From: Clostridia bacterium
GTDB lineage: Bacteria; Bacillota; Clostridia; Lachnospirales; CAG-274
DNA length: 64,000 nucleotides
NCBI GenBank assembly: GCA_030524425.1
Contig: JAUNGN010000002.1
Location: forward strand, 62,001 to 126,000
Direction of reading: 5' to 3'
Shown: positions 7,085 to 9,825 of the stretch, one piece after another
How positions within the stretch are numbered: position 1 is the first letter of the stretch
Layout: every line of letters begins with the position of its first letter
Program-made: the position numbers and the translations under genes
The notes under the pieces: model-generated
What the model saw: the letters and a program-made list of their open reading frames with translations, nothing else
The model's database searches: none
What the model was told of the DNA's origin: nothing

Positions 7085-7189
7085 AATAATAATTATTATT
7101 GTCTATTTGCCTTTTCATATTGACAAAATATTAACGTATGTGATATTATTATGCTGTCAAGAGACAAGAAAAAAATACAAGCCTTGACA
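7085..7189 (+). promoter_or_regulatory. Control region of the split pyruvate formate-lyase operon
   Basis: This region sits at the end of a 380-bp non-coding stretch (6862-7242). A 16-bp perfect AT palindrome (AATAATAA with TTATTATT) lies at 7085-7100. A promoter follows: TTGACA at 7120-7125, an 18-bp spacer and TATTAT at 7144-7149. A 7-bp inverted repeat (TGTCAAG at 7155-7161, CTTGACA at 7183-7189) begins near the predicted transcript start. Another short inverted repeat (TTAGC/GCTAA) is at 7063-7076. The palindromes could be sites for a redox or anaerobic regulator; no specific factor can be named. Confidence 0.55.
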
Positions 7190-7242: not shown

Positions 7243-9294
7243 ATGAACCAAGAATGGAACGGCTTTGTTAAAGGAGTTTGGCAAAGAGAAATCAACGTAA
7301 GGGATTTTATTCAGAAAAATTATACCCCTTATGACGGAGATGATTCCTTCCTTGCAGGCCCCACAAAGGCTACAGAGGAGCTTTGGGCTCAGGTAATGGA
7401 CCTTTCAAAGCAGGAGAGAGAAGCCGGCGGTGTATTGGATATGGATACAAGAATTATTTCAACCATTACATCCCATAATGCAGGTTATTTAGATAAGAGC
7501 AAAGAAAAGATTGTAGGATTCCAGACTGACAAGCCTTTCAAGCGTTCTTTACAGCCTTACGGCGGTATCAGAATGGCAGTTAAGGCATGTAAGGATAACG
7601 GCTATGAGGTTGACCCTGAAATTGTAGAATTTTTTACAACTCACAGGAAAACTCATAACGCAGGTGTATTTGATGCTTATACCGATGAGATGAGAGCCTG
7701 CCGTTCAAGCCATATTATTACAGGTCTTCCCGATGCTTACGGCAGAGGCAGAATTATCGGTGACTACAGAAGAATTGCTCTTTATGGTGTAGACAGACTT
7801 ATTGAGGACAAGATTAATCAGAAGAATTCAACAAGAACAATTATGTATTCCGATGTTATCAGAAACAGAGAGGAGCTTTCAGAACAGATCAGAGCTTTGC
7901 AGGATTTAAAGAAGCTTGGTGAAATTTACGGCTATGATATTTCAAGACCTGCAAATAATGTTCAGGAGGCTATTCAGTGGACTTACTTCGGTTATCTTGC
8001 TGCAGTTAAGGAGCAGAACGGCGCCGCAATGTCTTTAGGCAGAACTTCTACATTTATTGATATTTATGCCGAAAGAGATTTAAAGAATGGTACATTTACT
8101 GAAGATGAAATTCAGGAATTTGTTGACCATTTTATTATGAAGTTAAGACTTGTTAAGTTTGCAAGAACTCCTGAGTACAATGCATTATTCTCAGGTGATC
8201 CTACATGGGTAACAGAGTCTATAGGCGGTGTTGGTATTGACGGCAGACACATGGTTACAAAAATGAGTTTCAGATATCTTCACACTTTACAGAATTTAGG
8301 TACTGCTCCTGAGCCTAACTTAACAGTTCTCTGGTCTGTAAGACTGCCTCAGAACTTTAAGAAATTCTGCGCAAAGACTTCTATTGAGTCATCATCAATT
8401 CAGTACGAAAATGATGACCTTATGAGAGTAACTCATGGTGATGACTATGCAATTGCCTGCTGTGTATCTTCAATGAGAGTAGGCAAGGAGATGCAGTTCT
8501 TCGGCGCAAGAGCTAACCTTGCAAAGTGCCTGCTTTATGCTGTTAACGGCGGTATTGATGAAATCACAAAGAAGCAGGTTGGCCCTAAGTACAGACCTAT
8601 TACATCTGAATATCTTGACTTTGATGAAGTAATGGATAAGTACAGAGATATGATGAAGTGGCTTGCAAGAGTATATGTAAATGCCCTTAACATCATACAT
8701 TATATGCATGATAAGTATTGTTATGAAAAGCTGCAGATGGCTTTGCATGACAAGGAAGTAACACGCTGGTTTGCAACAGGTATTGCAGGTCTTTCCGTAG
8801 TTGCTGACTCACTTTCTGCTATTAAATATGCTAAGGTTAAGACAATAAGAGATGAAAACGGCATTGTTGTGGATTATGAGGTTGAGGGAGATTTCCCTAA
8901 GTATGGCAACGATGATGACAGAGTTGACTCTATTGCTGCCGAGCTTGTTCATGAGTTTATGCAGTATGTAAAGAGTAACCATACTTACAGAGGCGGTATT
9001 CCTACAACATCTATTCTTACCATTACTTCCAACGTAGTTTACGGTAAGAATACAGGTTCAACTCCGGACGGCAGAAAGGGCGGCGAGCCGTTTGCTCCGG
9101 GAGCTAATCCAATGCACAGAAGAGATGCCCATGGTGCAGTAGCCTCACTTGCTTCTGTATCAAAGCTTCCTTTCAGAGATGCACAGGATGGTATTTCAAA
9201 CACATTCTCAATCATTCCTAACGCCCTTGGCAAGGATGCATCTGTGTTTGCGGGAGATTTAGAGGTTGATTTGGAGATTAACGAGGATAAATAA
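7243..9294 (+). CDS. pflB: Pyruvate formate-lyase catalytic subunit lacking the glycyl-radical domain
   Basis: 683 residues, against about 750-760 for standard PflB. The enzyme converts pyruvate and CoA to acetyl-CoA and formate in anaerobic fermentation. The body of the barrel is intact, with the catalytic cysteine pair Cys406-Cys407 (IACCVSSM) and the late motif [17 protein letters not shown]. The protein stops shortly after [10 protein letters not shown], just where the C-terminal glycyl-radical domain would begin in E. coli PflB. That domain is encoded at 9536-9775. The stop overlaps the next start (TAATG), so the two genes are translationally coupled. GGAGGAG precedes the ATG. The split is real rather than a frameshift, because another gene lies between the two halves. 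Confidence 0.95.
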
Positions 9295-9521
9295 TGGATA
9301 ATAAAAAAATTGATGATTTAGTTAATATGATTGACAGCTTTATGCAAAATGACGGAGGTCATATGAATGTAACTGTCAATGACAACGGCGAAATCAAAAC
9401 AGACGAAGAATATGTGGATAAAGACGTAGTTACATTAGGCTGTCTTGATTGTGCCGATAATATGGCCTGTTCCGTGCCGACTCTTTTTGACGGTATGGAC
9501 AGAGATGAAGATGATAAATAA
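9294..9521 (+). CDS. 75-residue paralogue of the glycyl-radical domain without the radical loop, Cys-rich
   Basis: The first 28 residues ([12 protein letters not shown]...GGHMNVTV) align with the start of the 79-residue glycyl-radical protein downstream and with the matching part of E. coli PflB (NLAGLMDGY...GGQHLNVNV). After this the sequence diverges: the RVSGY radical loop is absent. In its place is [11 protein letters not shown] (Cys50, Cys53, Cys59) and an acidic tail (DRDEDDK). It overlaps the pflB stop by one base and is 14 bp from the next gene, so it is made with the enzyme. It cannot carry the radical. It might cap the open site, protect or exchange with the radical subunit, or bind a metal; all three are inference. 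Confidence 0.8.
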
Positions 9522-9535
9522 GGAGGATTTATATT

Positions 9536-9775
9536 ATGGCTAATGAACAGCAGGTTGATAATTTGGTTAATATTCTTGATGGTTATGCTGAAAAGGGTGG
9601 TCATCACTTAAATGTAAATGTATTTACAAAGGAGACTTTACTTGATGCACAGGCTCATCCTGAAAAATATCCCCAGCTTACAGTAAGAGTTTCAGGCTAT
9701 GCCGTAAACTTTAATAAGCTTACCAAGGAACAGCAGGATGAGGTTATTTCAAGAACCTTCCATGACAATATCTGA
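9536..9775 (+). CDS. Stand-alone glycyl-radical subunit of pyruvate formate-lyase (GrcA/YfiD-like)
   Basis: 79 residues matching the C-terminal end of PflB almost completely: [19 protein letters not shown], then [19 protein letters not shown] and a final TFHDNI. Gly54 in RVSGY is the expected radical residue made by the activating enzyme. In E. coli the similar protein YfiD (GrcA) replaces the damaged domain of an oxygen-cleaved PflB; here it looks like the only copy, since the large subunit ends before this domain. An AGGAGG ribosome site precedes the ATG, and a strong terminator follows. It should assemble with the 683-residue subunit. Confidence 0.9.
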
Positions 9776-9798: not shown

Positions 9799-9825
9799 AA
9801 AGGCGGTTTACTAACCGCCTTTTTT
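9799..9825 (+). terminator. Rho-independent terminator of the pfl operon
   Basis: Stem AAAGGCGGTT / AACCGCCTTT, loop TACT, then a T-run. An extra AAGGCGGT copy at 9791-9798 could pair alternatively with the same 3' arm. It separates the pfl subunits from pflA. Confidence 0.85.

Follow-up and report, generated by a model that had tools for sequence, protein, structure and literature searches.

The window, i.e. the whole stretch of DNA analysed here, comprises 64,000 nucleotides of a Clostridia bacterium of the order Lachnospirales (assembly GCA_030524425.1, contig JAUNGN010000002.1, positions 62,001 to 126,000 of the forward strand). It contains a locus in which pyruvate formate-lyase (PFL) is encoded in two pieces, namely a catalytic subunit, PflB, of 683 residues and a separate protein of 79 residues, which carries the glycyl radical domain. 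A middle gene coding for 75 residues lies between them, and the gene of the activating enzyme PflA, a radical S-adenosylmethionine (SAM) enzyme, is located downstream (Table 1).

Compared to the PFL model TIGR01255, PflB reached 1118.3 bits (cut-off 994.2) and matched the model positions 2-665 of 744, and PF02901 was found with an E of 1.4e-222. The radical domain PF01228 is divided at positions 49/50: positions 1-49 were found on PflB (E 4.3e-9), whose chain does not contain the remainder, and positions 50-106 on the 79-residue protein (E 2.5e-23, starting at residue 3). This confirms the separate radical-domain protein noted in a preliminary description of this DNA. The same description let PflB end right after NALGKD, which proved to be wrong, as 18 more residues are present and form a C-terminal tail. 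Similar tails, judged by eye, were observed in most of the split PflBs of the order that were examined. Of the adjacent catalytic cysteines, Cys406 is kept by 85 and Cys407 by all of the 86 split PflBs, and the 19 full-length PFLs compared from outside this clade have both. As a PFL, PflB would take part in the conversion of pyruvate and coenzyme A (CoA) to formate and acetyl-CoA. A frameshift had been rejected as the origin of the two pieces, and we agree: the middle gene intervenes, the stop codon of pflB overlaps with the ATG of the middle gene (TAATG), AAGGAGG precedes the ATG of the 79-residue gene, and the gene order recurs in relatives.

The 79-residue protein belongs to NF038360 (rad_fix_GrcA3), which it matched with 170.3 bits (cut-off 158). 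Its Gly54 in RVSGY is invariant in the alignment A7 and lies in a stretch that matched the radical segment at the C-terminus of E. coli PFL (1h16/1cm5, E 1.6e-23). The protein stays below the cut-off of TIGR04365 for GrcA/YfiD (97 of 170 bits) and does not comprise the roughly 60-residue disordered extension known from the N-terminus of GrcA/YfiD. A full-length PFL to be repaired by it was not found either: in the genome (2.6 Mb, 74 contigs, 97.2% complete), the only PFL-like match was the truncated PflB of the window, and PF01228 matched only the parts on PflB and on the 79-residue protein. Since no full-length PFL was found, the catalytic cysteine pair is kept and the loci are linked, the 79-residue protein is most likely an obligatory radical subunit, as had been proposed. 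Cheap renewal of an oxygen-damaged domain, also put forward in the preliminary description, would be a possible benefit of this arrangement. The 79-residue protein looks like the sole PFL radical source of the cell. In several split-PFL genomes a second, orphan radical-subunit gene was observed with no pflB within the fetched stretch (L268-L273); these orphans could be true spare parts.

Table 1. Positions of genes and sequence features of the split pfl locus within the window.
Feature	Position	Strand	Basis or content
Promoter-like site TTGACA-18-TATTAT, 5' of pflB	7120..7149	+	Consensus scan, 11/12 positions
pflB, truncated (catalytic subunit of PFL), 683 residues	7243..9294	+	TIGR01255, PF02901
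Catalytic Cys406-Cys407 pair (= E. coli C418/C419)	8458..8463	+	Conservation
PflB C-terminal tail after NALGK, in place of the radical domain	9235..9291	+	Sequence
Middle gene, 75 residues	9294..9521	+	Residues ~1-34 radical-subunit-like, then cysteine motif
Cysteine motif of the middle protein, C50-x2-C53-x5-C59, then SVPTL	9441..9470	+	Conserved motif
Radical subunit gene (GrcA3 type), 79 residues	9536..9775	+	NF038360, PF01228
Gly54 codon, predicted radical site in RVSGY	9695..9697	+	Alignment with E. coli PFL
Terminator-like hairpin, 3' of the radical subunit gene	9799..9822	+	10-pair stem and T run
pflA, radical SAM activating enzyme, 246 residues	9961..10701	+	TIGR02493, 304.2 bits (cut-off 231.75)

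The promoter-like sites of the consensus scan showed no clear excess over shuffled sequences (13 compared to 9.0 +/- 3.3), so that a function is not supported, and the same holds true for terminator-like hairpins (1 compared to 1.6 +/- 1.3).

The split enzyme in other genomes

The split was observed in 7 of 7 genomes of the genus, including that of the window. For 96 of 392 genomes of the order, the matches listed include a radical subunit standing alone (frames of 80-141 residues, at least 154 bits). The middle protein (profile search, at least 32 bits) was determined in 74 genomes of the order, all of which belong to these 96; the other 296 gave no match of this strength. Weaker matches elsewhere covered only the first third of the profile, which is shared with radical domains. 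For this co-occurrence a Fisher p of 1.7e-60 was calculated from genome lists that were transcribed by hand and then compared, and in which related genomes are not independent.

In named public genomes (a collection with one genome per species), 415 coding stretches of the middle protein were found, and the locus counts rest on 80 loci kept from these. The radical subunit lies downstream of the middle gene in 80 of 80 loci and a truncated PflB upstream in 79, the 80th locus beginning at a contig end. Among the 79 upstream PflBs, 74 comprise at least 640 residues and five are cut by contig ends or broken; a full-length PFL occurred at none of the 80 loci. The three-gene order is not confined to the window, and the finding applies more generally than the preliminary description stated. 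Named cases include Hungatella hathewayi DSM 13479 (L163, finished chromosome), a metagenome-assembled genome of Enterocloster bolteae (L162), Eubacterium ruminantium (L194, L218) and Candidatus Gallispira edinburgensis (L156).

Outside the order, a class-wide sample of 383 genomes listed 13 with a stand-alone subunit, each adjoining a truncated pfl. Two of them contain the middle protein, seven have two or more cysteines in the tail of PflB (for one of these, G561, pflB is broken in the assembly), and four have neither at the locus. Altogether, every pfl examined next to a stand-alone radical subunit was truncated.

The middle protein and the cysteine tail

The most unusual part of the locus is the middle gene, which by its sequence codes for a conserved cysteine protein derived from a radical domain. 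The preliminary description had correctly noted a gene between the two pieces, but missed both its kinship to the radical subunit and its conserved cysteines. The first 34 columns of the middle protein align with radical subunits (hhalign probability 96.8%, E 2.3e-10), and its residues 2-31 matched NF038360 with an E of 5.3e-5. The shared columns comprise the helix and the GGHxNV strand that close the barrel in PFL, and the glycyl loop is absent from the middle protein. They are followed by the motif C-x(3-9)-[AP]C-x-x-P[TN], which was found in 117 of 118 distinct middle proteins, mostly as C-x5/6-C-x-x-PTL and, within the alignments, mostly with L-x-x-G-x-D after it. The two cysteines are spaced by six residues in 102 and by five in 11 of the 117, and they are invariant in an alignment of 25 rows. 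In total, 44 of the 118 distinct proteins contain two cysteines, 71 contain three, including that of the window, and three contain four.

The lone exception to the motif belongs to a genus with a shortened middle protein (G382, G261; L138, L309), which ends after GCTDCAK because a TAA cuts the motif short. Five genomes (G275, G296, G319, G384, G392; L133, L135-L137, L140) carry a middle gene that is present yet unlinked from the pfl genes. In four of these loci (L133, L135, L136, L137) it adjoins, or is one gene away from, a glutamate 5-kinase-like gene, an assignment that results from a model match in L136 (TIGR01027, 311 bits) and from similar sequence in the other three. A selenocysteine in the middle protein of G522, considered for one TGA in the match, was rejected, as its own frame runs from start to stop codon with ordinary cysteines in the motif.

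Cysteines were also determined in the PflB tails of other split genomes. Of the 96 split genomes of the order, 22 lack the middle protein, and in 21 of these 22 the tail of PflB contains two or more cysteines. Within the order these tails range from ECGNQACNIPN and EPDCACCEPN to GECCSGGACDGATLFEGLDRE; outside the order they include LDCDNGACSSPTLFEGLD, which is nearly the end of a middle protein, as well as a plain GCCEGTVE. Where the middle gene is present at the locus, 0 of 122 truncated PflBs showed a cysteine in the tail, although some genomes were counted twice in this number due to overlapping collections. Three further cysteines of split PflBs (C116, C153, C429) were considered as partners and dropped; E. 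coli-like rows (L353, L354) have cysteine at the first two of these positions.

When the states middle gene, cysteine tail or neither were mapped as one trait on a tree of 113 catalytic domains, at least seven changes were required. All 86 split PflBs fell into one clade of 94 (local support 99), in which eight full-length PFLs are nested. The simplest reading of this topology would be one split followed by two fusions, and the split enzyme apparently dates back to a common ancestor. An approximately unbiased (AU) test with 52 rows, in which the 36 split rows were forced into a clade of their own, gave a tree that was 47 log units worse (p-AU 0.0588). Accordingly, the tree favours a re-fusion for the full-length PFLs nested there (L279-L284, L294), but does not prove it. 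A stronger case is given by L278 (G317; L278:1224-3524) due to its linker scar: this full-length PFL inside the split clade contains the linker VTCGCEEVTCAVD, after which a radical subunit begins, and apparently represents a cysteine-tail PflB and a radical subunit that were fused again. The occurrence of the motif on the middle protein, on the PflB tail or on a re-fused linker suggests that it has a task in the split enzyme, irrespective of the chain that bears it.

Proposed mechanism and alternative explanations

It is assumed with good, but not complete, confidence that the locus encodes an obligate two-subunit PFL with an accessory cysteine module, which probably acts as a docking placeholder. 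Gene content and conservation were observed directly, while we infer docking and chemistry from E. coli PFL and YfiD. The 683-residue PflB would fold as a PFL barrel with the active-site cysteines, but without the last strand and the glycyl loop, both of which would be supplied by the docked 79-residue subunit. PflA would charge Gly54 of this subunit, from where the radical would pass to Cys407 of PflB, and the 79-residue subunit would be the only PFL radical source in the cell. The middle protein may be regarded as a copy of the docking helix and strand of the radical subunit fused to a cysteine motif. It would fill the empty docking slot of PflB and thereby replace in trans the stub that E. 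coli PFL provides with its residues 696-733. It is proposed as such a placeholder because it is homologous to the helix just before the stub and to the strand at the stub start. Its cysteines may gate or protect the slot-filled state; in other lineages, cysteines are located on the PflB tail instead. The association of the module with the split was found in the genomes themselves, and its placeholder and redox roles are what we infer from it; for the cysteines, a redox gate, protection and metal binding are candidate roles.

According to passages of PMC8683613, the stub residues 696-733 of E. coli PFL are needed for efficient YfiD binding and activation. A truncated E. coli PFL (tPFL, residues 1-695, ending near the natural PflB end) binds YfiD poorly, with a radical content 32-fold lower than that of cPFL:YfiD (PFL cut at 733). 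For tPFL and N-terminally shortened YfiD, the combination that comes closest to the natural pair, 2.7 uM radical compared to 15.9 uM is given. Once activated, tPFL:YfiD is described there as being as active as the wild type, and tPFL with truncated YfiD as catalytically competent. Since tPFL is poorly bound and activated, a natural split enzyme must offset the lost stub. Supply of the radical in trans works in vivo, because GrcA supports formate production by E. coli PflB-G734A, as stated in a passage of PMC12338860.

An AlphaFold model of PflB together with the middle protein (predicted local distance difference test score, pLDDT, 75.7) placed the strand of the middle protein on the docking strand of PFL, i.e. 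the last barrel strand. Compared to 2pfl, residues 1-722 of the model corresponded to residues 3-715 of the chain (Z 47.3, root-mean-square deviation 2.8, 678 aligned). Several observations speak against a placeholder and a general need for the module. The strand placement is biased and not independent, as the alignment held rows of full-length PFL, the cysteine part is disordered in this model (pLDDT below 50), and a model of the three-gene chain was poor (pLDDT 58.6). Furthermore, that middle gene and cysteine tail exclude each other is based on only three well-supported independent switches, for which a sign test gave a p of 0.25. Since one of the 96 split genomes of the order (G016) and 4 of the 13 outside it have neither form at the locus, the module is dispensable in some lineages, and a tailless type (L412, L413) evidently does without it.

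A more far-reaching, rather tentative version would be a three-component PFL, in which the cysteine module (middle protein, PflB tail or re-fused linker) is a dedicated element of activation and quality control. The middle protein would mimic the stub of cleaved PFL and hold the slot of a radical-less PflB, and the redox state of the cysteine pair would decide on the loading of a fresh subunit, so that the oxygen-sensitive part is routinely exchanged.

Among the alternatives, the middle protein could be an accessory subunit binding a metal or cluster, as in BSS, HPAD and MASS, and control the movement of the radical domain. It is small, bears cysteines and co-occurs with a glycyl radical enzyme, a passage of PMC12358834 reports that BSS-beta and MASS-delta were proposed to gate the motion of the radical domain, and cysteines of PflB or a homodimer could complete a site. 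We nevertheless consider this explanation unlikely: with two invariant cysteines, and only two in total in 44 of 118 sequences, there are too few for a [4Fe-4S] cluster on a single chain, and all but three of the 118 contain fewer than the four cysteines (CX2CXnCXnC) of such iron-sulfur accessory subunits. The spacing of the cysteine pair given above likewise stands against it, as does the lack of any sequence relative in the PDB below an E of 0.5. For the HiPIP-like or rubredoxin-like fold of those subunits, this PDB comparison and the model with its disordered cysteine part gave no clear indication in either direction.

The docking segment common to the middle protein and the radical subunit could also point to a dummy radical subunit in the second PFL protomer, which enforces one radical per dimer. 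Half-site radical content in vitro is mentioned in PMC12338860, but in vivo data on E. coli in the same paper argue against half-site reactivity, and the cysteine-tail lineages have no docking segment to spare. A dummy subunit is therefore quite improbable. Slightly less probable still is that the 79-residue protein is a spare part like E. coli YfiD/GrcA, which repairs oxygen-damaged PFL and is normally dispensable. The family name (autonomous glycyl radical cofactor GrcA3) and the YfiD precedent (passages of PMC8683613) favour it. However, no intact PFL that could be damaged was found: the radical glycine is missing from PflB, the genome gave no other PFL-like match, and the pfl was truncated wherever it was examined beside a stand-alone subunit.

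That the middle gene is a functionless, decaying relic of a duplicated radical domain is hardly credible. The radical motif was lost from its C-terminal half, and a shortened form exists in one genus (G382, G261), but the cysteine motif is kept in all but one of the distinct sequences, the gene is kept even when unlinked from pfl, and PflB tails bear a similar motif. Finally, a sequencing or assembly error, for which nothing speaks beyond the window being draft sequence, is refuted by the recurrence of the split in all seven genus genomes searched and at loci from many records, including the finished chromosome CP102274.1; the split is a genuine and by no means rare arrangement.

Viral relatives and known systems

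When viral contigs were scanned for the radical subunit, at least 43 loci were found, and the matches listed comprise 13 short split-type subunits, 29 of the long YfiD type and one full-length PFL. The 13 short ones among these matches (L310-L322) are stand-alone proteins of 76-79 residues with 72-79% identity to the query. On two contigs (L312, L315) the radical subunit adjoins an anaerobic ribonucleotide reductase gene. Three of the 13 contigs (L312, L317, L322) also carry a truncated PflB. In L312 (4240-6264) and L322 (3793-5817) the truncated pflB forms an uninterrupted frame only when TGA codes for tryptophan, a sign of phages that have reassigned this stop codon and carry an entire split PFL. 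In L317 (1932-3971) a tailless truncated pflB in the standard code is followed by the radical subunit. A separate scan of viral contigs with the middle protein revealed no relative. Phage T4 carries an exchangeable radical piece for E. coli, and the short viral subunits indicate that viruses of bacteria likewise carry the exchangeable piece. The tailless split PFLs of L412 and L413, from a family outside the order and with pflA located upstream, have small subunits resembling the viral ones (RTIH ending), and members of this family may be phage hosts.

PFL is a central enzyme of gut fermentation, and oxygen destroys its radical domain. Annotating the small protein as a spare part, or the truncated PflB as a fragment, would mislead metabolic reconstruction. 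Furthermore, the cysteine module points to a hitherto unknown component of the loading or use of the radical.

Compared to E. coli PFL (PflB, TIGR01255; 1h16, 2pfl), the catalytic domain and the activase are the same: the PflB of the window matched 1h16 with 995 bits, and the chain of H. hathewayi is 57-58% identical to the E. coli PFL structures. In contrast to E. coli PFL, the radical segment of the window is located on a separate protein, and PflB has a new C-terminal tail. Like YfiD/GrcA (TIGR04365; 6owr), which works in trans on PFL, and like Y06I of phage T4, the 79-residue protein is a stand-alone radical domain (E 1e-22 to 6owr), but it differs from YfiD/GrcA in the missing N-terminal extension and in that no intact PFL was found which it could rescue. 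It is a member of NF038360, whose name GrcA3 implies repair, whereas the protein of the window looks like the sole radical source.

Like the middle protein, the accessory subunits of BSS, HPAD and MASS are small cysteine-bearing partners of glycyl radical enzymes; they bind [4Fe-4S] or Fe according to a passage of PMC12358834. Unlike these subunits, for which no relation to the radical domain was seen here, the middle protein has an N-terminus derived from the radical domain and two invariant cysteines.

Two chains in the PDB, both named 'Formate acetyltransferase' and compared by chain sequence alone, look like split PFLs, one tailless and one with a cysteine tail: 38LA ends at SLGKED without a radical domain, and 38LB shows a tail including GECDMCEM after ALGK. 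They were not among the 34 PDB matches of the small subunit. Since they are not among the matches listed from a structure library ending 8 April 2026, they are probably recent, and since they are truncated PFLs, the split is known to at least one group. In the open-access literature, searched by titles, abstract starts and passages, nothing was found on a split PFL or a middle protein, and no paper in it uses the name GrcA3, though this family is curated in NCBIfam. Altogether, the split is a variant of an already known kind (GrcA3 in NCBIfam, 38LA and 38LB in the PDB), and no earlier report of the middle protein, or of a cysteine-bearing PflB tail in its place, was found in this literature. 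The two-piece PFL, present in hundreds of species, is a natural version of the pair of tPFL and truncated YfiD that is poorly activated in E. coli. Comparing the natural pair with the E. coli pair makes it testable how a glycyl radical is loaded on one protein and serves another.

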